A stretch of DNA of 64,000 nucleotides. Origin: Rheinheimera sp. D18 (GTDB lineage Bacteria > Pseudomonadota > Gammaproteobacteria > Enterobacterales > Alteromonadaceae). Below the pieces are notes generated by a model. The model made no database searches, was not told where the DNA came from, and worked only from the letters and a program-made list of their open reading frames with translations. Location of the stretch: positions 2,666,001 to 2,730,000 of the forward strand of contig NZ_CP037745.1 of assembly GCF_004345025.1 (NCBI RefSeq). The letters run 5' to 3'. Made by a program: the position numbers and the translations under genes. Below are positions 44,393 through 57,530 of this stretch, piece after piece; position 1 is the stretch's first letter, and the number at the start of each line of letters is the position of its first letter.

Positions 44393-46516
44393 ATGGAATA
44401 CACCGATGCCGTCAGCGAGAGTGAGTATCCTACTTATTCGCGTGAATTAAGCTGGCTGGCTTTTAATGACCGAGTACTGCAAGAAGCGGCCGACGAGCGC
44501 AACCCACCGATAGAGCGCCTACGCTTTTTAGGTATTTACTCAAACAATATGGATGAGTTTTTTCGCGTTAGAGTAGCCGATGTAAAGCGCCGTATCTTGC
44601 TAAAAAAATACCAAAATACTGAGCAAGAAGATGCCGAAGCATTAATGCAGGCGATTCAACAACAAGTATTAAAACTTGGTGCGCGTTTTAATGCTATTTA
44701 TCTTGATATTCAGCTAGAGCTGCGCAAGCACAATATAGAATTAATTGACCACCATAAGTTAACTGATTTGCAATCATTATGGGTACGCCGATATTTTCGC
44801 GACGAAGTGTTAAAGCATATATCACCGATGATTTTATCTGGTGACGAATTCAGTTTACCCAAAGCGCTAGAAGATAACGCTACCTATTTAATGGTCGAAA
44901 TGACCGGCGCTAGTAAGCCAGAATACGCCATAGTGCAAGTGCCAACTAATGAGCTGTCACGATTTATTGAGTTACCGCTGCAACTGAATACGCGAAAAAA
45001 GAACGGTAATTATCGGCGGCAAATTTTGCTACTAGACGACGTTATCGTGCACTGTATTGCCGATTTGTTTTCTGGCTTTTTTGAGTTTGACGCCATCGAA
45101 GCTTACTCATTAAAACTCACCCGCGATGCCGATTACAATATTAGCGACACACTAGATCAGAGCCTGATTGATAAAATGTCTAAAGGCATTCGTCAGCGTT
45201 TAAAATCAGACCCTGTGCGGCTGGTATACGACAATGCGATGCCTGAGCAAATGCTAAAAGTTTTAAGTAAACAGCTTGGCACTAGCAGTAGCGCTGAGTC
45301 ATTAATTCCTGGCAGCCGCTATCGCAATTTTAAAGATTTTATCGGCTTTCCCAACATTGGCCATCAAAGCTTAGCCTTTCCAATACAGCCAGCATTAAAA
45401 AGCCCGGAATTTGAGCAGCATGCCACCAGCTTCGACGCCATTAAAGCCGGCGATATTTTACTTTATTACCCGTATCACAGCTTTGGTTACTTTACAGAAT
45501 GGGTACGCCAGGCTTCATTTGACCCCAAAGTTAGCCAAATTAAACTCACCATGTACCGAGTGGCCAAGCAGTCGCGCGTTATTAACTCATTAATTGATGC
45601 TGCGCGTAATGGTAAAAAAGTAACGGTAGTAGTAGAGCTAACTGCCCGTTTTGATGAAGAAAACAACATCAACTGGGCACGTAAAATGACTGAAGCCGGT
45701 ATTCAAGTGGTATTTGGCTTAACGACATTAAAAGTGCATTCTAAGTTGTGCCTAATTAGCCGTATAGAACGCGGTAAAACCATTAGCTATGGCCACATTA
45801 GTACCGGTAACTTTAATGAGAAAACCGCCCGTATTTATACCGACATCAGCCTATTTACCTGTCATTCAGAAATTACCGCTGAAATTGATCAAGTTTTTGA
45901 GTTTGTTGAATACAGTTACCGTCAATATGAGTTTAAGCACCTTATTGTGTCGCCCACGTGGAGTCGGTCACGCTTAATTCAGCTGATCCAGCGTGAAATA
46001 GATTTTGCTAACAGTGGCGATAAGGCTGAGATTTTTCTCAAACTAAACAATCTTGCTGATCCAGAAATTGTCGAACTACTGTACCGCGCAAGCCAAGCAG
46101 GAGTAAAAATTCGTATTATTGTTCGCGGTATGTGTGCACTGGTTCCCGGCATTAGCGGTATTAGCCAAAATATAAAAATTATTTCTGTGCTCGATCGCTT
46201 TTTAGAACATGCCCGGGTTTATGTGTTCCATAATGGCGGCGACACTAATGTTTACTTATCATCAGCCGACTGGATGACTCGAAACATAGACCAGCGAGTT
46301 GAAGTTGGCGTACCCATTTATGATCCGCGCCTTAAACAGCAAGTATTAGATACGTTAGACATTCAATGGCACGATAACGTAAAGGCGCGTATTATTGACG
46401 CCCAACAAAGCAATGGCTACGTGAAGCGCGGCAACAAGCGTAGCATACGTTCACAACAAGAAATTTATGATTATTTTGCCCGCATAACCTGGCAAAACAG
46501 CGACCAAAGCCATTAA
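44393..46516 (+). CDS. ppk1: Polyphosphate kinase 1
   Basis: Makes inorganic polyphosphate from ATP. The 707-residue protein has the N domain (SRELSWLAFNDRVLQEA), the head domain, and the PLD-like C domains with the phosphohistidine motif in TLKVHSKLCLI and YGHISTGNFNEKTARIYTD. The ppx start overlaps its stop by one base (TAATG), so the two are translationally coupled. This places polyP metabolism beside the Pho genes. Confidence 0.97.
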   Translation: MEYTDAVSESEYPTYSRELSWLAFNDRVLQEAADERNPPIERLRFLGIYSNNMDEFFRVRVADVKRRILLKKYQNTEQEDAEALMQAIQQQVLKLGARFNAIYLDIQLELRKHNIELIDHHKLTDLQSLWVRRYFRDEVLKHISPMILSGDEFSLPKALEDNATYLMVEMTGASKPEYAIVQVPTNELSRFIELPLQLNTRKKNGNYRRQILLLDDVIVHCIADLFSGFFEFDAIEAYSLKLTRDADYNISDTLDQSLIDKMSKGIRQRLKSDPVRLVYDNAMPEQMLKVLSKQLGTSSSAESLIPGSRYRNFKDFIGFPNIGHQSLAFPIQPALKSPEFEQHATSFDAIKAGDILLYYPYHSFGYFTEWVRQASFDPKVSQIKLTMYRVAKQSRVINSLIDAARNGKKVTVVVELTARFDEENNINWARKMTEAGIQVVFGLTTLKVHSKLCLISRIERGKTISYGHISTGNFNEKTARIYTDISLFTCHSEITAEIDQVFEFVEYSYRQYEFKHLIVSPTWSRSRLIQLIQREIDFANSGDKAEIFLKLNNLADPEIVELLYRASQAGVKIRIIVRGMCALVPGISGISQNIKIISVLDRFLEHARVYVFHNGGDTNVYLSSADWMTRNIDQRVEVGVPIYDPRLKQQVLDTLDIQWHDNVKARIIDAQQSNGYVKRGNKRSIRSQQEIYDYFARITWQNSDQSH

Positions 46517-48054
46517 TGAATGACATTACTGCTAACGTAACACGCCCAGAAAACCAAGCCTATATGGCCGCGGTTGATTTGGGTTCAAACTCTTTTCATA
46601 TGGTTATTGCTCGCGTGGTCGATGGCGACATTCAGCCATTACATCGTGAAAAGCAAAAACTTCAACTAGCACAAGGTTTAAACGACCAGTTTGTGCTAAG
46701 TGAAGAGGCCATTGACCGCGGTTTATCCGTCCTAGCGCAATTTGCTGATACCTTAAAGCCCTTTGCGCCACAATCGGTGCGGGTTATTGCTACCTACACC
46801 TTACGCCGAGCAAAAAATGCCGCAACGTTTTTACGCCGTGCTAAATCGGTATTTCCGTTTCCAATAGAAATTATTTCTGGCCAAGAAGAAGCGCGCTTTA
46901 TATACAGTGGTGTGGCTAATTTTGAATATTTTAGCGGTCACCGCTTAGTAATCGATATCGGTGGCGGCAGCACTGAACTCGCCCTTGGGGTGGGTTTGCA
47001 ACCGTTAAAACTAGGCAGCAGAAACATGGGCTGTATTAGCTATGGTTTGCAGCACTTTGCCCAAGGTCGTATTAGTGAAAAACGCTTTGCCCGTGCAATT
47101 TTACAGGCCGAACAAGAGCTAGAACCTATTGTCACTAGCTTTAGAGCGTTAGGCTGGCAACAAGTAGTGGGCACCTCGGGTACGGTCAAAATTATTCGCG
47201 ATATTATTGTTGGTTTAGGCTTAAGTAACAACGCTCTAGAATTGTCGCATCTGTTGGCGCTTAAAGCCCTATTATTAGCGTACAACAATAGCGCGCAATT
47301 AAATTTACCCGGCCTAACAGATGATAGAAAACCACTGATTTGCTCGGGTTTAGCCATACTAATTGCCGCATTTAATCTATTGCAAATCGACCAGCTAACC
47401 TATATCGACGCGGCACTGCGCGAAGGTGTGTTATATGAAATGAGCGATCGTTTGCAACATGTGGATATTCGTGAGCATACCGTTACTAGCTTGCAGCGCC
47501 GTTACGACGTCGATATGGCTCAAGCCAAGCGCGTTCGTAATACCGCATTAGTGCTATTTCAGCAGGTACGCCAGTTATGGCAGCTAAATGACGAAGATGC
47601 CACATTATTAGGCTGGGCCGCAACCTTATATGAAGTTGGTCTGCACATTAATTCATCAGGTGTACAAAAACATTCAGCCTACATTTTAGAAAATGCCAAC
47701 CTACCCGGCTTTAACCAAGAAGAACAACTGCTTATCTCCACCTTAGTACGTTTCCATCGGCATAAAATCCGCTTAGATGACATGCCTACTTTTAGCCTGT
47801 ATCAGCTATCACAGGCGGTATATTTAACGGTACTACTGCGTTTGGCCGTTTTGTTAAACCAAAAACGACGCGATGATATACTGCCACAACTAACCGTTAG
47901 TGCAAAAGTACAGCAGCTACAGCTACATTTAAGCCCAGACTGGCTGGCACAACAACGCTTGCTTGCCGCCGATTTAGTCGCAGAGCAAAAAGTATTAAAG
48001 AAAATTGGTTTTACGCTTGATTGCTTCAACTTAACCACAGTAAAAGCCAGCTAG
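46516..48054 (+). CDS. ppx: Exopolyphosphatase (Ppx/GppA family)
   Basis: A 512-residue sugar-kinase-fold phosphatase: AAVDLGSNSFHMVI and VIDIGGGSTELALG are the two phosphate-binding loops, EIISGQEEARFIYSG is the catalytic region, and the C-terminal HD-like helical domain is present, as in E. coli Ppx (513). Degrades polyP; pppGpp hydrolysis (GppA) is a possible alternative. It overlaps ppk by one base. Confidence 0.95.
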   Translation: MNDITANVTRPENQAYMAAVDLGSNSFHMVIARVVDGDIQPLHREKQKLQLAQGLNDQFVLSEEAIDRGLSVLAQFADTLKPFAPQSVRVIATYTLRRAKNAATFLRRAKSVFPFPIEIISGQEEARFIYSGVANFEYFSGHRLVIDIGGGSTELALGVGLQPLKLGSRNMGCISYGLQHFAQGRISEKRFARAILQAEQELEPIVTSFRALGWQQVVGTSGTVKIIRDIIVGLGLSNNALELSHLLALKALLLAYNNSAQLNLPGLTDDRKPLICSGLAILIAAFNLLQIDQLTYIDAALREGVLYEMSDRLQHVDIREHTVTSLQRRYDVDMAQAKRVRNTALVLFQQVRQLWQLNDEDATLLGWAATLYEVGLHINSSGVQKHSAYILENANLPGFNQEEQLLISTLVRFHRHKIRLDDMPTFSLYQLSQAVYLTVLLRLAVLLNQKRRDDILPQLTVSAKVQQLQLHLSPDWLAQQRLLAADLVAEQKVLKKIGFTLDCFNLTTVKAS

Positions 48055-50041: not shown

Positions 50042-51337
50042 TTAAAGCACTAGCTCTGGCGGTAGCGTAAAGGAAAAACAGCTGCCTTTGCCGGGCTCAC
50101 TATTAATGACCAACTTGCTATTATGCCACGACAACACATGCTTCACTATAGCCAAGCCAAGACCGCTGCCACCGGTATTGCGAGCGCGCGCTTCATCTAC
50201 TCGGTAAAAACGTTCTGTTAAACGCTTTACATGCTGCAGTGCTATACCCGGCCCATTATCCGTTATCGTAAACACGGCACCATTAGGCTGTCGCTGCCAG
50301 CTAAGCTGAATAATGCCGTTACTAGGCGTGTATTTAATGGCGTTGGTGAGCAAATTAGAAAATACACTACGTAGCTCTTCACTAACGCCGGTTACTTTAA
50401 GCTTGCTATCAACAGCAAAGCTGATTTGATGCTGTTTATCATGGTTCAGCGCCTGCGCTTCTTGCTCTAAGGTCGCAAGCAAGCTTGGTACATCGACTTC
50501 ATTATCAAACGGTACTTTAGTAGCAGCTTCTATTCGCGATAGCGTGAGTAATTGCTGCACTAACAGCTCCATACGTTTGGTCTGATCTAGCATTACGTTA
50601 TGCGCTTTTTTCCACATCGCTTTATCGGGTAAATGCTCATCATCCATAACTTCAAGATAACCTTGCAGCACAGTAAGCGGTGTACGCAATTCGTGCGATA
50701 CGTTGGCAACAAAGTCTTTACGAACTTGCTCAAGCTGCTTTAAGTGCGAGATATCGCGGACGATCAACAAGTATTGTTCAATATCGTAGGGCACCAGATG
50801 AAGCTCAAGTGTTCGCTGCGCGCTCACCGGTGATGGCAGCTCAATCGGCTGGGTAAAGTTTGTTGCCGCTAAGTATTGCTGAAAATCAGGATGGCGAATA
50901 AGGTTATCTAACCGAATGCCTTCATCCGACGGCCAATGTAGGCCAATTAAGGTTTGTGCTAACTGGTTACTCCAAACAATAGTCCAGTCATCACGCAGTA
51001 CTACTACGGCTTCTGGCAATGCTTCTACACCATCGCGAAAGCGCCGTACCATATTTCTAAGTTCACGGCGCTTACGCCGATCTTTGCGCTGCTGGTAATA
51101 TATACCTTCAAATAAATGTGCCCAAATGCCGTCAGCCATCGGCGGTGATAGCTTACGATCTTGCCACAGCCATTTATCCATAAGAAACAAGTGATGATAG
51201 TGCCATAGCAGTAAGGCGATGGTGAAAATAAGTAGCGCCAGCACTAAGCTGTTAGAAATAAAGCCGACCAAGGCCATAAAGCAATATAAAAGAACGAGCT
51301 TGGTATACACCTTATTTTTTGACAGTAGCTGACGCAT
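50042..51337 (-). CDS. phoR: Phosphate-regulon sensor kinase PhoR
   Basis: Membrane histidine kinase that phosphorylates PhoB when phosphate is low. The 431-residue protein has two N-terminal membrane helices (about 14-46), a basic linker, a PAS domain (about 95-200, AVVVLRDDWTIVWSN), the HisKA box with the phosphoaccessible His in FVANVSHELRTPLTVLQGY and the ATPase motifs DNGPGIA and GGSGLGLAIVKHV. phoB is 17 bases upstream. Confidence 0.96.
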   Translation of the reverse strand: MRQLLSKNKVYTKLVLLYCFMALVGFISNSLVLALLIFTIALLLWHYHHLFLMDKWLWQDRKLSPPMADGIWAHLFEGIYYQQRKDRRKRRELRNMVRRFRDGVEALPEAVVVLRDDWTIVWSNQLAQTLIGLHWPSDEGIRLDNLIRHPDFQQYLAATNFTQPIELPSPVSAQRTLELHLVPYDIEQYLLIVRDISHLKQLEQVRKDFVANVSHELRTPLTVLQGYLEVMDDEHLPDKAMWKKAHNVMLDQTKRMELLVQQLLTLSRIEAATKVPFDNEVDVPSLLATLEQEAQALNHDKQHQISFAVDSKLKVTGVSEELRSVFSNLLTNAIKYTPSNGIIQLSWQRQPNGAVFTITDNGPGIALQHVKRLTERFYRVDEARARNTGGSGLGLAIVKHVLSWHNSKLVINSEPGKGSCFSFTLPPELVL

Positions 51338-51354
51338 AACGGCAGTAATTAACC

Positions 51355-52041
51355 TTACTTAGCGGAGAAACGGTAACCAGCACCACGCACGGTTTGCACT
51401 AATCTATCATGCCCGGCTACAGAAATCGCCATACGTAAACGTCGAATATGCACATCCACCGTGCGATCTTCCACATACACATTGGTGCCCCACACGTGAT
51501 CAAGCAACTGTTCGCGGCTGTATACTCGCTCGGGATGGGTCATAAAAAAATGCAGTAGGCGAAACTCGGTAGGGCCAATATCCAGGGTGTGCTCTTGTGC
51601 CGTTACCCGATGCGATACAGGGTCAAGTTTTAAACCTTGCACGTCCAACACTTCGTCTAGGCTAGTGGGTGCTACGCGACGGATAACGGCTTTAATGCGC
51701 GCCATTAATTCTTTAGGTGAAAATGGTTTAGTCACATAATCATCAGCGCCCACTTCTAAGCCACGCACCTTGTCTTCTTCTTCGCCTCGAGCAGTAATCA
51801 TAATAATCGGGATATTACGCATTAGCTCATGCTGCTTCATTTTTTTGGCTATCTGAATACCACTGCCGCCGGGTAACATCCAGTCTAGTAATACTAAATC
51901 AGGATAAGGTTCTACTAGCGCATTAAGTGCCGAGTTATAGTCTTCAGCCGTTGTCGCTTGGTAACCGTGTTGCTCCAAAACAAAACACAGCATATCGCGT
52001 ATTGGCGCTTCGTCTTCTACTACTAAAATTTTTCTTGTCAT
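51355..52041 (-). CDS. phoB: Phosphate-regulon response regulator PhoB
   Basis: A 228-residue OmpR-class regulator matching E. coli PhoB: receiver domain with [12 protein letters not shown] and phosphoacceptor Asp in [14 protein letters not shown] (about Asp53), then the winged helix with [15 protein letters not shown] and [12 protein letters not shown] use ATG 52041 ([11 protein letters not shown]); a GTG at 52053 is in frame but unneeded. A Pho box about 100 bases upstream implies autoregulation. Confidence 0.97.
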
Positions 52042-52138
52042 TAAACCCACCACACTCGATTTATTGTCGGGCTTTTTAGCCGCGCGGCGCTAATTATTAC
52101 TTAACAATTATTTGCTTAACCTAGTATTACCGCAGTTT

Positions 52139-52156
52139 ATGACACTTTTATGAAAA
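52139..52156 (-). promoter_or_regulatory. Pho box of phoBR
   Basis: Minus strand TTTTCAT - AAAA - GTGTCAT, followed by AAAC. It closely resembles the E. coli phoB box (TTTTCAT, CTGTCAT with a 4-base spacer) and faces phoB. Confidence 0.75.
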
Positions 52157-52232: not shown

Positions 52233-52261
52233 TTGTAATAAAACCGTCATTTTTCTGTTGT
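52233..52261 (+). promoter_or_regulatory. Pho-box array before the beta-helix lipoprotein
   Basis: TTGTAAT - AAAA - CCGTCAT - TTTT - CTGTTGT: three 7-mers related to CTGTCAT (5, 6 and 5 matches of 7) in exact 11-base register, 54 bases before the chosen start. The 11-base period is the PhoB binding pattern. Confidence 0.6.
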
Positions 52262-52314
52262 AGGGTGCATACGACTTATTTGCAGCACCTAAAAAACCAA
52301 ATGGAGAGATGGCA

Positions 52315-53727
52315 ATGGCTTTATGCAAACTATTAAAACTAAGCGCACTAGCATCCGCAATAGCACTGGCTGGCTGTGGTGGTGACCTAGTGGTAAATGC
52401 TGGAAATGGCGGCAGTAATACTGGCGGCACCACACCACCAGCCACTGGCCCCTGCCCTAGCTTTGCTAGCGAAGATAAAAGCTTAGCCAGCATAAATAAA
52501 ACCGTGTGTGGTATTTCCGGCACTATTACTAACGATATCCGCCTAACCGCAAATATTATTTGGTCGTTAAGCGGTAAGGTAACTGTAGGTAACGATAACG
52601 CCAACAGCACTACGCTAACGATTGAACCAGGTGTTACGCTGTTTGGTAAAAGCGGTGCTGACTACTTAGTAGTGGCGCGCGGCTCAAAAATTCAAGCGGT
52701 GGGCACCGCTGCAGCGCCCATCATCATGACGTCTATAAATGACATGCTGGGCTTGTCTAATAACGATTCTGCAGCAGAATGGGGCGGCTTGGTGTTGTTA
52801 GGTAAGGCGCCAACCAACAAATGTAACCAAGCTGATTTAGCAAATTGCCAAGTAGAAGCCGAAGGCGAAGCTGGCCCTTACGGTGGCGCTGATGCCGACG
52901 ACAGCAGCGGCGCATTAAAATACCTGCAAGTACGCTATGCCGGTTACGAAGTTATTCCTGACAACGAATTAAACGGTATTACCTTTGCAGGTGTCGGCCG
53001 AGGCACTCGCGTTGAATATATTCAAGTACACAACAACCTTGATGACGGTGTTGAGTTTTTTGGCGGCACCGTTGACGCCAAATACGTGGTGCTAACCGGT
53101 AATCGCGACGACTCGTTAGACTGGGCCGATGGCTGGTCTGGCCGTATGCAGCATGTACTGGTGCGCCACAACCCCAATAATTCTAAAGCTAACCGTGGTA
53201 TTGAAGCGGACAACCAATCAGGTAACTTTACTGCACAACCGCTATCCAAACCGCGCATTGCCAACATGACCATTATTGGCAACAACTTTGATGGTGAAGA
53301 CGACTCTGAAGGCATTTTATTGCGTGCTGGCACCGCAGCTGAGTTGTACAACATCATAGTGACCGGTCCTGAAGGTATGGGTGAATGCTTTGAAATAAAT
53401 AGCGATGAGTCGATAACCAATGCCAACAACGGCGAAATTGTGTTTCGAAACTCCATTATTGATTGCACCGAACCCTTTAAAAATAGCGTTGATAGCAATG
53501 GCAACGTTACGTTAGACACCGGCGCTTGGTTTCGCGCACAACCGGGCAACCTAGTTGGCAGTGCCTTGTTAGCCGGTTTTATACCCGCAGCTAACTCACC
53601 CGCCTTAACTAATGGCTATAACGTGGCTAACTATGTTGATAACTGGTTTGACAACGTAACGCATATTGGTGCCTTTGATGGCAAAACCAATTGGACCCAG
53701 GGTTGGACCATAGGTTTAACCGACTAA
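52315..53727 (+). CDS. Secreted beta-helix lipoprotein, probable Pho-regulated TonB-receptor partner
   Basis: A 470-residue lipoprotein: signal ending LAGC (Cys21 from ATG 52315), a Gly/Thr/Pro spacer, then repeating short strands typical of a right-handed parallel beta-helix (IIMTSINDM, LKYLQVRYAGYEV, VEYIQVHNNLDDGVEFFGG, AKYVVLTGNRDDSLDW, IANMTIIGNNFDG). It is rich in Asp/Asn turns that could bind Ca2+. I prefer ATG 52315, as GGAGAG is only 0-2 bases from ATG 52309 but 6-8 from 52315. The position beside phoB, the Pho-box array and the following TonB receptor suggest a surface role in phosphorus acquisition; ligand unknown. Confidence 0.75.
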   Translation: MALCKLLKLSALASAIALAGCGGDLVVNAGNGGSNTGGTTPPATGPCPSFASEDKSLASINKTVCGISGTITNDIRLTANIIWSLSGKVTVGNDNANSTTLTIEPGVTLFGKSGADYLVVARGSKIQAVGTAAAPIIMTSINDMLGLSNNDSAAEWGGLVLLGKAPTNKCNQADLANCQVEAEGEAGPYGGADADDSSGALKYLQVRYAGYEVIPDNELNGITFAGVGRGTRVEYIQVHNNLDDGVEFFGGTVDAKYVVLTGNRDDSLDWADGWSGRMQHVLVRHNPNNSKANRGIEADNQSGNFTAQPLSKPRIANMTIIGNNFDGEDDSEGILLRAGTAAELYNIIVTGPEGMGECFEINSDESITNANNGEIVFRNSIIDCTEPFKNSVDSNGNVTLDTGAWFRAQPGNLVGSALLAGFIPAANSPALTNGYNVANYVDNWFDNVTHIGAFDGKTNWTQGWTIGLTD

Positions 53728-53735
53728 GTAAAACA

Positions 53736-53768
53736 CACACTGCCGGTTTAATACTGGCAGTGTTTTTT
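53736..53768 (+). terminator. Intrinsic terminator between lipoprotein and TonB receptor
   Basis: CACTGCCGGT (53738-53747) pairs with ACTGGCAGTG (53753-53762, one wobble) and TTTTTTA follows, 11 bases after the lipoprotein stop. Read-through would set the receptor at a lower level than the lipoprotein. Confidence 0.85.
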
Positions 53769-53826
53769 ATGCCGTCGCGTTACTCAACTAAACAGCGACA
53801 ACCTTAAACCAATAGGAAAAGTTTAA

Positions 53827-56487
53827 ATGAGCAGTATGCCAAAGTTTACTTTTAGCCGTATTGGGCGCGGTGTAGTTTTAGCCCTACACACCGCCGCTGC
53901 TGCCGTGTCGCTAAATGCGGCAGCTCAAGACCCAGCCGAGCCATTAACACCAGATAGCGCAAGTGTTGAACGTATTTCAGTATCGGGCCGCTTGCTAAGT
54001 TCAGCGGCAGCCGCAGCAGCCGAACGCCGTGAGCTGCCTTATGTAGCAGAGCTATTGGGTGCCGAACAAATTAGCCGAGCCGGCGATAGCAATGCCGCTA
54101 CAGCTCTGCGCCGAGTAACCGGCCTTACACTAGTAAAAGATAAATTTATTTATGTGCGCGGCTTAGGCGAGCGTTATTCTAGTACGCTATTAAATGGCGC
54201 TATGGTGCCAAGCCCTGATCCAACCCGTAATGTTATTCCGCTAGATATGTTCCCCGCCGGCATTATTGAAAGCCTAGTCGTGCAAAAGGCCTATTCGCCA
54301 GAATTACCTGCCGCCTTTGGTGGTGGTAACGTTAATATTCGCACCACGTCAATTCCGCTACAACGCAGCTTTAATGTTGCCTTAGGCACCGGGTACAACA
54401 GCCTAAACAATGAACGTGGCGTTAGCTATGCCGGTGGCAGTAACGATTGGCAAGGTAAAGATAACGGCGTACGCGCTATACCAGCCGAACTTGCCATCGC
54501 GCAGCAGCAATATGGTGTGCTAACACCGATTAATATTGCCGAAAACCTTGGTGGGGTTAATGCTGATAATTTAGCGCAGGCAGAAAATACGTTACGCCAT
54601 TTAGGTACGGCTTTTAACCGCAATATCGATATCAATGCTACCAGCATAAAACCGGATGTTGACGGCAGTATCTCGTTCGGTGACCGTTTTGCTCTAACCT
54701 CAGATAGCGTATTTGGCGTAATGACCGGTCTAAGTTACGACCGTTCAACACATAATATTCAAGAGCAAGAGCGTTACTACTCAGTATCGGGCAAAAACTT
54801 AACACCGCTAAACCGTTATGACGATATTAGCGGTACTGAGCATCAGGTTAAGTTATCTGGCATGCTAAGTTTTGGCCTAGATTTAGGTGTTAATCATCAC
54901 CTTGAAACGGCAACAATCTATCTGCGTGATACCAAAGACGAAGTTAAAATTAAACGTGGCGACAGTATTGAAACCATTAACGAGAATAACCGTTCGAACA
55001 CCGATACCAATATTAACTATGAACAGCGAACACTGCTAAGTAATCAAATCAGCGGCAAGCACAATTTTACGCCACTAAACGATTTAGCCCTTAACTGGCA
55101 ATACACCAAAGCTAAAGTGCGCCGCTATGCTCCGGGCCAAATTGAATACCGTTACCTAAACGAAAGCCAAGCTGATGGTTCAGTATTTTCATTTTTGCGC
55201 CGTAACCAAAACGCCGTAAATTATAGTTTCAGTGATATGCAAGACAACACTGAAAACCTAAGTTGGGATACTAAACTGCCACTAACACTGGGTAAGGTTG
55301 AAATGATGTTAAGCACTGGCTATGCGCATTTCGAACGCAGCCGTAACGCCCAAACCGACCGCTTTAACTTTGATACGGTAGGCTTTAACCTTAACCAACT
55401 ATCAGGCCGTTTTTTTGAGATTTTTTCTGATGACAATATTTTAAACCCGAGTAATGGCTTTAAAATCTCAAATGTGACCACGCAAGCTGACGACTATTTA
55501 GCCGCACAAATGATCGATGCCGGCTACCTAGCACTAGAGCTTAACTACAATTACACAGTTCGCCTAAATTTAGGTGTGCGCTATGAAGACTTTAAACAAA
55601 TTTCTATCCCGCTAACTGCCAATAACAGCATCAGTGGCTCAATTACTGACTCAATATTGCAAGCCGATGACTTTTACCCCGCACTAGCGTTAACCTGGTT
55701 TGTTAATGATGATTTACAAGCCCGCTTAGGTTACAGCCAAACCACAGTAAGGCCAGATTTACGTGAAGTAACACCCGTATTGTATATCGACCCACTTACC
55801 GACTTTAACGTTACTGGCTTTGCTAACTTGCAAAGTACCGATATCAACAGCCTAGATGCGCGCTTAGAATGGTATGCAGATAGCAGCAACTATAGCTTAG
55901 GCGTATTTTACAAAGCGTTAAAAAACCCAATAGAAGCAATTGAATTATCAGCGTCAGACGGCAACTTACTCATGTCATTTCGTAATGCACAAAGCGGAAA
56001 GCTGTATGGTATTGAAGCCGACTTTTTACAACCGTTAGGTTTTTTTAGTGACAGCATTGGCCAGTTTGCAGATAATTTTTTTGTAGCGGGCAATATTACC
56101 GTTAGCAATTCCGCCATTACTATTCAACGCTTTCCGGGCGCTAACCTTACCAACCTAACACGTAGTTTAAATGGTCATTCTAAGTATATCGCTAACCTGC
56201 AGTTGGGTTTTGACTCCGATAATAACCAGCATAACGCTACCCTAACCTATAACGTGTTTGGTAAACGCATTGCCTTTGCCGGTGTAAATGAAAAGGGTGA
56301 CGCCTTTGAGCAACCCTTTCACTCGCTAGATCTGACTTATAGTTATGCACCAAGCGACAGCATGACGGTAAAATTAGGCTTAAAAAACTTATTAGATAAC
56401 GACGTAGAAATTTTGCAGCAAAATGAAATTTTGCAAAAACGTATTGAGGGCCAAAGCTACAGTTTAAGCTTTGCCTATAAATACTAA
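53827..56487 (+). CDS. TonB-dependent outer-membrane receptor
   Basis: An 886-residue receptor: signal peptide (cleavage near AAA|Q, about residue 33), TonB-box-like VERISVSG (about 47-54), plug domain (about 65-185, with ALRRVTGLTLVKD, YVRGLGERYSSTLLNG and DMFPAGIIESLVVQKAYS) and a 22-strand-type barrel ending in the aromatic SYSLSFAYKY. It is about 100 bases downstream of the beta-helix lipoprotein with a terminator between, an arrangement like a SusC/SusD pair in logic. Substrate cannot be read from the sequence; Pho linkage makes phosphate, phosphoester or polyphosphate a candidate. Confidence 0.88.
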   Translation: MSSMPKFTFSRIGRGVVLALHTAAAAVSLNAAAQDPAEPLTPDSASVERISVSGRLLSSAAAAAAERRELPYVAELLGAEQISRAGDSNAATALRRVTGLTLVKDKFIYVRGLGERYSSTLLNGAMVPSPDPTRNVIPLDMFPAGIIESLVVQKAYSPELPAAFGGGNVNIRTTSIPLQRSFNVALGTGYNSLNNERGVSYAGGSNDWQGKDNGVRAIPAELAIAQQQYGVLTPINIAENLGGVNADNLAQAENTLRHLGTAFNRNIDINATSIKPDVDGSISFGDRFALTSDSVFGVMTGLSYDRSTHNIQEQERYYSVSGKNLTPLNRYDDISGTEHQVKLSGMLSFGLDLGVNHHLETATIYLRDTKDEVKIKRGDSIETINENNRSNTDTNINYEQRTLLSNQISGKHNFTPLNDLALNWQYTKAKVRRYAPGQIEYRYLNESQADGSVFSFLRRNQNAVNYSFSDMQDNTENLSWDTKLPLTLGKVEMMLSTGYAHFERSRNAQTDRFNFDTVGFNLNQLSGRFFEIFSDDNILNPSNGFKISNVTTQADDYLAAQMIDAGYLALELNYNYTVRLNLGVRYEDFKQISIPLTANNSISGSITDSILQADDFYPALALTWFVNDDLQARLGYSQTTVRPDLREVTPVLYIDPLTDFNVTGFANLQSTDINSLDARLEWYADSSNYSLGVFYKALKNPIEAIELSASDGNLLMSFRNAQSGKLYGIEADFLQPLGFFSDSIGQFADNFFVAGNITVSNSAITIQRFPGANLTNLTRSLNGHSKYIANLQLGFDSDNNQHNATLTYNVFGKRIAFAGVNEKGDAFEQPFHSLDLTYSYAPSDSMTVKLGLKNLLDNDVEILQQNEILQKRIEGQSYSLSFAYKY

Positions 56488-56538: not shown

Positions 56539-57441
56539 TTAAAACTTATGCTCTAACCCTAGGGCAACATAGTTTTTGTCTACCGCGTTATAAAAATCAA
56601 AACTAGAATACCACGCAAAGGCTTTGGTATTTTTACCTAACTTATAATCGGCGCCAACGCTAAAGCCCTTATCATCTTCCAGAGCTTGATACTGGGCCTT
56701 TAATTCAAACTTTTCTAGTGGATACGCCACGCTGAATAAATAGCCGTCTTGTTCTAGGCCACTAATTACCGCTTCTTGTGTTTGGTACATAGCACCAAGT
56801 TTAAACTCGGCTACTTTAACTTGCGCACTGGCGCGCACGGTATCAAAGCCCGCTACCTTTGAGTCATAAGCTAAACCAAAATACACATTGCTGCTTTTTA
56901 AGCTCTCATCACCATAGAGTAAGGCCGCAGATATACCGTCGTCAGCATCCGCTGAACCTTCAGCAATATAACTAAACTGGGCGTAAAAACCGGAAAATGA
57001 TGGCGTAAAATAACTAATAGAATTTGTTAGCCGGTTTTCGCCTTGCCATAAGGTTTGTACGTCCGCTTCGTAGTTATTAAACTGATCAATTTTACCCTGT
57101 GATAACTTTAGCGCTGTGTCGTGACGACCTAAACGAATTTCACCGAAACTGCCGGCTAAACCTAAATATTGATCACGGGCTTTAATATTCTTATCACTAG
57201 CTCCGTTGGTTGTCTCTACGCCGAATTCTAACTGATACACTACTTTTAAGCCGTCTTCGAGTGCATATTCGCCTTTAACACCAAAGTTTGACGAGTTGCT
57301 TTTCAATTCAGTAAAACGTCCGTCGCCTTCATCGCTAGATTGCGCAGAGATGTTAATTTTACCGTACACTTCCAATTCTTTGGCTTGTAAAGATAAAGAA
57401 CTGGCCAACATCATAGCTAATACTATTGTCGTTTTTTTCAT
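56539..57441 (-). CDS. General porin, Gram-negative type
   Basis: A 300-residue trimeric-porin-like protein: signal peptide (MKKTTIVLAMMLASSLSLQA, cleavage near residue 20), opening strand KELEVYGKINISAQ, the YQLEFGVET strand, GEIRLGRHDTALK and a C-terminal Phe (GLEHKF). The start is ATG 57441 behind AGGTG; 12 upstream in-frame codons are not needed. It stands alone between the TonB receptor and the pst operon. A phosphate-selective (PhoE/OprP-like) role is suggested by position only; I see no clear Pho box. Confidence 0.85.
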   Translation of the reverse strand: MKKTTIVLAMMLASSLSLQAKELEVYGKINISAQSSDEGDGRFTELKSNSSNFGVKGEYALEDGLKVVYQLEFGVETTNGASDKNIKARDQYLGLAGSFGEIRLGRHDTALKLSQGKIDQFNNYEADVQTLWQGENRLTNSISYFTPSFSGFYAQFSYIAEGSADADDGISAALLYGDESLKSSNVYFGLAYDSKVAGFDTVRASAQVKVAEFKLGAMYQTQEAVISGLEQDGYLFSVAYPLEKFELKAQYQALEDDKGFSVGADYKLGKNTKAFAWYSSFDFYNAVDKNYVALGLEHKF

Positions 57442-57530
57442 ATGTGCACCTAAGTTAATGCAGAATAAATCTGCCATTAGTCTAACCGACTTGGCGATTT
57501 TTTGTATTTTACGCTTATAGAAAATAACAT

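Follow-up and report, generated by a model that had tools for sequence, protein, structure and literature searches.

A beta-helix lipoprotein with a Pho box and its adjoining TonB-dependent receptor in Rheinheimera sp. D18: a candidate ElpS/CC0171-type outer-membrane unit

The window analysed here is a 64,000-nucleotide (nt) stretch of the 3.31 Mb genome of Rheinheimera sp. D18, which carries a lipoprotein gene and a TonB-dependent receptor gene directly beside phoB and phoR (phoBR). The two genes run divergently from phoBR, and a porin gene, phoU, and the pst genes lie downstream on the minus strand. An initial annotation of this DNA had listed an array of three 7-mers, a lipoprotein, a terminator, and a receptor of 886 amino acids (aa) adjoining phoBR, and every one of these parts was found where it had been placed (Table 1). 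Within the genome, the lipoprotein and the receptor have one match each (E ≤ 0.001). Labels beginning with L and G are our own for loci and genomes, and the published papers cited are represented by parts of their text, to which the statements drawn from them are limited.

Table 1. Features of the lipoprotein-receptor locus and its flanks, in window positions
Feature	Position	Strand	Details
phoR	50042..51337	-	TIGR02966 and NF008235, both above cut-off
phoB	51355..52053	-	TIGR02154, above cut-off
Pho box facing phoB	52139..52156	-	TTTTCAT-AAAA-GTGTCAT, 11/14; putative autoregulation
Pho box of the lipoprotein gene	52233..52250	+	TTGTAAT and CCGTCAT, 4-nt spacer; 11/14 to consensus
Third 7-mer	52255..52261	+	CTGTTGT, in register; likelier spacer running into the -10, overlaps the conserved hexamer
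Candidate -10 hexamer	52261..52266	+	TAGGGT, 10 nt downstream of the Pho box; putative role
ElpS-type lipoprotein	52309..53727	+	472 aa (470 aa from 52315); single beta-helix domain
Intrinsic terminator hairpin	53737..53763	+	between lipoprotein and receptor genes; -17.8 kcal/mol, T tail
CC0171-type TonB-dependent receptor	53827..56487	+	886 aa; Pfam Plug and TonB_dep_Rec_b-barrel
General porin	56539..57477	-	Pfam match Porin_4; between receptor and phoU, outside the pair

The likelier start of the lipoprotein is the ATG at 52315, because it is preceded by a Shine-Dalgarno-like GGAGA (52303-52307) and agrees with the alignment of relatives. The sequence contains the lipobox LAGC with a Gly at +2. 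AlphaFold models the protein as a parallel beta-helix (predicted local distance difference test, pLDDT, 90.4), which bears out the beta-helix-like repeat pattern that had been read from the letters. There was no Pfam or NCBIfam match, the Pfam version searched apparently being one without the PF28492 model; in the protein database, the PF28492 tag is carried by the window lipoprotein and its listed homologues (the best 120 of 1842), and, with the lipoprotein of locus L150 as the query, by the best 120 of 4076 homologues, Caulobacter proteins among them. Searches of the PDB with the lipoprotein gave no relative, the sequence search returning one chance-level match (E 0.48) and the profile search none, and Foldseek with the model found nothing at E ≤ 0.001. 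Weaker Foldseek matches share a common beta-helix, and an enzyme identity is not inferred from them. A ladder of acidic residues is conserved in the lipoprotein at positions 245/246/249, 267/268/271, and 299/301. The receptor model has a pLDDT of 82.5. Against TIGR01782 (TonB-Xanth-Caul), the receptor scores 203.3 bits, below the curated cut-off of 310, and a PDB search gave no relative at E ≤ 0.01. Its top fold matches among solved structures are mostly transporters of iron, haem, and vitamin B12, in which the solved set is rich.

Pho boxes of the Escherichia coli type are built of CTGTCAT units in an 11-nt register, and in a PhoB-dependent promoter two such 7-mers, spaced by 4 nt, stand about 10 nt before the -10. 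Sites were scored against this consensus, with a maximum of 21 for three units and 14 for two. The array TTGTAAT-AAAA-CCGTCAT-TTTT-CTGTTGT at 52233-52261 scores 16/21 and is the top three-unit site on the plus strand of the window; counting both strands, the window holds a single other site with this score, upstream of pstC (62004, minus strand). In 200 shuffles of the 260-nt region upstream of the lipoprotein gene, the score was never equalled. A two-unit site facing pstS (63167, minus strand) scores 12/14. The upstream region was aligned with 27 related ones (n = 28). All 28 have TGTAAT in the first unit, and 26 have GTCA in the second, L038 and L067 deviating. At a fixed distance from the box, the candidate -10 position holds TAGGGT in 16/28 and TATGGT in 8/28 (24/28 together), with other hexamers in L032, L045, L047, and L056. 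The third 7-mer is missing in L050-L055, L057, and L058. Since the first two units are conserved and the third is absent from several relatives, the working Pho box is most likely 52233-52250. The array of three 7-mers described initially is therefore correct as to register, but conservation is confined to the first two units, the third falling on the spacer and the candidate -10. With the box at 52233-52250 and the hexamer at 52261-52266, the region fits the PhoB promoter rule, and PhoB binding is predicted. A box-like block also occurs in the aligned relatives at the same place as the box facing phoB.

As a control, 200 dinucleotide shuffles were made for each of 66 upstream regions. The best three-unit site reached p ≤ 0.05 in 22 of the 27 loci in which the lipoprotein gene is divergent from phoB, in 8 of the 15 Idiomarinaceae loci, in which it is not, and in the window and L020. 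Mean three-unit scores upstream of the lipoprotein exceed those of other open reading frames (ORFs) in both groups (divergent loci, 14.15, n = 27, vs 10.88, n = 218, p 4e-13; Idiomarinaceae, 13.73, n = 15, vs 10.78, n = 128, p 4e-8), the control ORFs being those of the same loci, including other Pho genes, and the species not being independent. In several lipoprotein promoters of Pseudidiomarina, where phoB was not found beside the pair, four in-register units are readable.

Of 60 genomes, 28 (its own among them) carry the lipoprotein, and the receptor orthologue occurs in the same 28; the remaining 32 hold neither orthologue. Receptor orthologues score at least 507 bits, and the next matches in the 60 genomes score at most 61. 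The two genes are adjacent on the same strand in all 28 genomes (coordinates read by eye), which upholds the lipoprotein-receptor pairing that the initial annotation had proposed; the published relatives discussed below are phosphate-starvation genes. Across 78 loci, a receptor adjoins the lipoprotein in 77, and in the last (L094) the contig ends at the lipoprotein gene. A further set comprised 20 regions, mostly from other families, taken from 65 matching genomes among 396 searched; a receptor lies within about 1.6 kb of the lipoprotein in all 20. The distant receptors are merely 25-40% identical to the queries, so their orthology rests on position. Recurrence of the pair beside phoBR, which had been put forward as a point to follow across genomes, was found: phoBR is divergent from the pair in 28 of the 78 loci, co-directional with it in L061, and about 2 kb upstream in L160. 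Loci of SAR86 (L083, L088, L093, L095, L098, and L106) have a PhoB-like regulator (38-42%) and a kinase upstream of the pair. Type II secretion genes accompany the pair, directly or at a short distance, in 11 of the 20 further regions and were not seen in the other nine; they do not adjoin the window pair, and GspC lies at 3.09 Mb of the genome. This repeated linkage to phoBR or to type II secretion genes, together with variation in the number of lipoprotein domains and the probable loss of one of them in this lineage, is a new detail of the family.

Gene order around the pair varies. In Aliidiomarina celeris (L061:4702-17007), a porin, phoB, phoR, a two-domain lipoprotein, the receptor, a PstS-like protein, and a PstC-like permease are all co-directional and form a compact Pho island. 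In SAR86 locus L083 (3804-16956), a PhoB-like regulator (40%), a kinase, the lipoprotein, the receptor, and GspD-E-F follow one another consecutively. In L023 (G034) and L026 (G032), phoR lies just upstream of the lipoprotein gene and is co-directional with it, compared with the divergent order of the window genus.

The initial annotation had presented the pair as a candidate system. It is not new: homologous pairs had been reported from Caulobacter in 2010 and from Flavobacterium in 2020. Aligned over 444 aa, the window lipoprotein shares 38% identity with a lipoprotein of Caulobacter endophyticus; the window receptor shares 31% over 893 columns with that of L150, whose gene lies upstream of gspC. 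The order lipoprotein-receptor-gspC-D-E-F in L150, whose nearest named relatives are Phenylobacterium, is the published Caulobacter order. Because of these homologies, this gene order, and the published phosphate-induced relatives, the pair is classed by sequence as an ElpS/CC0171-type unit, a known kind, the comparison running through Caulobacter endophyticus and L150 and not through ElpS and CC0171 themselves. In Caulobacter crescentus, ElpS (CC0170, CCNA_00169) is reported to be surface-exposed and produced specifically under phosphate starvation, and its gene adjoins that of the TonB receptor CC0171 (PMC2996285); induction of its promoter in low phosphate is PhoB-dependent (PMC5172544). 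The window pair resembles it in its homologous lipoprotein, adjoining receptor, phosphate or PhoB link, and a receptor that is not clearly co-regulated. It differs in that type II secretion genes lie directly downstream of CC0170/CC0171 (PMC2996285), whereas the window pair is divergent from phoBR, and in the terminator that splits the window genes, which was looked for on the window side only. A later study of Caulobacter counts the type II system, along with several kinds of TonB receptor not specified by name, among the members of the PhoB regulon (PMC11208175).

A similar arrangement is reported for Flavobacterium johnsoniae, in which the FII lipoprotein Fjoh_0546 and the TonB receptor Fjoh_0545 (PUSIV) belong to a phoBR cluster and show strong induction when phosphate is low; a second pair consists of the FI lipoprotein Fjoh_3856 and the receptor Fjoh_3857 (PUSIII) (PMC8115612). 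The FI-FIII lipoproteins were related to ElpS by the authors at 31-36% identity, and, by the published description, the receptor of this member of the Bacteroidota differs from that of the window in having an extra pf13715 domain (PMC8115612). Like SusCD and PusCD, the window pair joins a TonB receptor with a lipoprotein, predicted here to be at the surface. Unlike them, it has a lipoprotein with a predicted beta-helix and no SusD match, and a receptor with no N-terminal carboxypeptidase-type domain. BtuB-BtuG of Bacteroides differs in its ligand, which is vitamin B12. The parts covered of a Rheinheimera transcriptome paper mention phosphate genes and TonB receptors and do not identify the window pair (PMC6680617), and those of a Pseudoalteromonas paper describe PhoBR and TonB receptors without a link between them (PMC2536512).

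The reading we favour, on somewhat better than even terms, is that the pair belongs to the Pho regulon as an outer-membrane unit of the ElpS/CC0171 type, serving surface capture and TonB-dependent import of a phosphorus-bearing polymer. When phosphate is short, PhoB would bind 52233-52250 and turn on the lipoprotein gene from a promoter with its -10 at 52261. The lipoprotein, with Gly and not Asp at +2, would be lipidated, routed to the outer membrane, and act at the surface. The conserved acidic ladder of its beta-helix would probably be a metal-assisted site for a polyanionic phosphorus-bearing polymer. The receptor, whose level may be lower and steadier than that of the lipoprotein because the terminator separates its gene from the lipoprotein gene, would take the ligand held by the lipoprotein and import it with TonB energy to periplasmic phosphatases and PstS. 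Phytate, one of the ligands suggested initially, is less likely, since genome searches found no beta-propeller phytase, PhoX, or PhoD; they did find one PhoA-type phosphatase.

The terminator on which this proposal draws had been noted initially and is present as a hairpin with a T tail. A hairpin with a T-rich tail occurs in 27 of 29 related intergenic regions, the window included and L057 and L058 excepted, and, in weak form, in one of six more distant regions (both counted without a chance control). The stem sequence is quite different in several relatives.

Several observations weigh against the favoured reading. Scores of the three-unit sites upstream of the lipoprotein exceed the 95th percentile of the controls in just 2/27 divergent and 0/15 Idiomarinaceae loci, and those of four-unit sites in 14/27 and 3/15; in the more distant loci, the best three-unit site reached p ≤ 0.05 in merely 5/22. 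Aligned pairwise with the window lipoprotein, the Caulobacter homologue does not retain the acidic group at 299/301. A ligand is named for no member of the pair family in the literature searched, subscription journals lying mostly outside it. The receptor gene has no Pho box upstream (best 8/14), and cc0171 is reported, with data not shown, to be expressed alike in rich and poor media, unlike elpS (PMC2996285). The PhoB-controlled module of the initial annotation is thus retained as a prediction for the lipoprotein, with its conserved Pho box, but not in full for the receptor, which has none and stands behind the terminator, and PhoB control appears weaker for the receptor than for the lipoprotein. 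Since the terminator lies between the genes and the receptor has no box of its own, we infer that the lipoprotein is produced in excess over the receptor, which fits the reported media-independent expression of cc0171 (PMC2996285).

The main rival, which we regard as unlikely, is that the lipoprotein is a phosphatase helper that stabilises or activates an alkaline phosphatase at the surface or once released, with the receptor anchoring the lipoprotein or importing the freed product. Overexpression of ElpS raised alkaline phosphatase activity in the supernatant and purified ElpS had no such activity, yet deletion of elpS left phosphatase activity undiminished, for which the authors invoke other phosphatases (PMC2996285). 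The PhoA-type phosphatase and GspC of the genome, and the type II secretion genes that accompany the pair in 11 of the 20 further regions, are consistent with a helper; such a role needs no co-inherited TonB receptor, yet one was seen in 77 of the 78 loci and in all 20 further regions. More doubtful again is capture of a glycan type, in which the beta-helix would bind or cleave a phosphorylated polysaccharide and the receptor import the oligosaccharide, phosphorus making up just one part of the gain. That the pair imports a non-phosphorus cargo such as iron or a cofactor, its proximity to phoBR being due to chance, is improbable: the fold matches of the receptor point towards such cargo, but Pho-box-like arrays also occur where phoB is not the divergent neighbour, several arrangements with phoBR exist, and relatives are reported to be induced when phosphate is low, but not when iron is low (PMC2996285; PMC8115612). 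Display or anchoring of the lipoprotein by the receptor, instead of nutrient import, would suit their co-inheritance and the report that ElpS gets across the outer membrane by an unknown route in which type II secretion has no part, but is very improbable given the ordinary Plug and barrel domains of the receptor and the finding that ElpS production was not suppressed in a cc0171 deletion mutant (PMC2996285).

The lipoprotein family has one to three beta-helix domains. Three tandem domains were seen in L079, L080, L081, L089, and L160 (1267-1301 aa; a 1398-aa frame in the L160 genome). In the tree, the window lipoprotein groups with that of G019 (95/93) inside the domain-1 clade, with long branches among the Idiomarinaceae rows. 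The short lipoprotein was considered as a hybrid of domains 1 and 2, which was rejected because domain 1 had the higher sliding identity throughout, block by block. With this and the placement in the domain-1 clade, the simpler reading is that one beta-helix domain, domain 2, was probably lost in the window lineage. An additional distant lipoprotein copy lies away from the main pair at G018:C2:612454 (43%) and G026:C6:361262 (42%), and in G032 an in-frame TAA falls within the second-domain match of the lipoprotein.

A broader proposal, which we offer tentatively and hold to be less probable than its opposite, is that the beta-helix lipoprotein, in one to three tandem copies, is a lid docking on its own TonB receptor, an architecture besides SusCD and BtuBG. 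This lid would serve a phosphorus-rich polymer, would be PhoB-controlled across Proteobacteria and Bacteroidota, and would set ligand length or affinity through the number of its domains. Phosphate passes the outer membrane via porins. A widespread PhoB-linked TonB receptor with its own lipoprotein would, if the favoured reading is true, mean active import, in many aquatic bacteria, of a phosphorus compound whose size or scarcity puts it beyond the reach of porins. In the window the unit takes a compact form, with one domain and with phoBR alongside, and the genus is a free-living one in which the question of the ligand can be tested directly.

The surroundings of the pair provide two further observations. 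The Porin_4 porin is convergent to the receptor and flanks phoU and the pst genes, a similar order occurring in several relatives; it has no recognisable Pho box upstream (best 7/14). At 44393-48054, a few kb from phoBR, lie ORFs that resemble polyphosphate kinase and exopolyphosphatase (named by eye), and phosphate storage, sensing, and uptake therefore seem to be clustered in this part of the genome.

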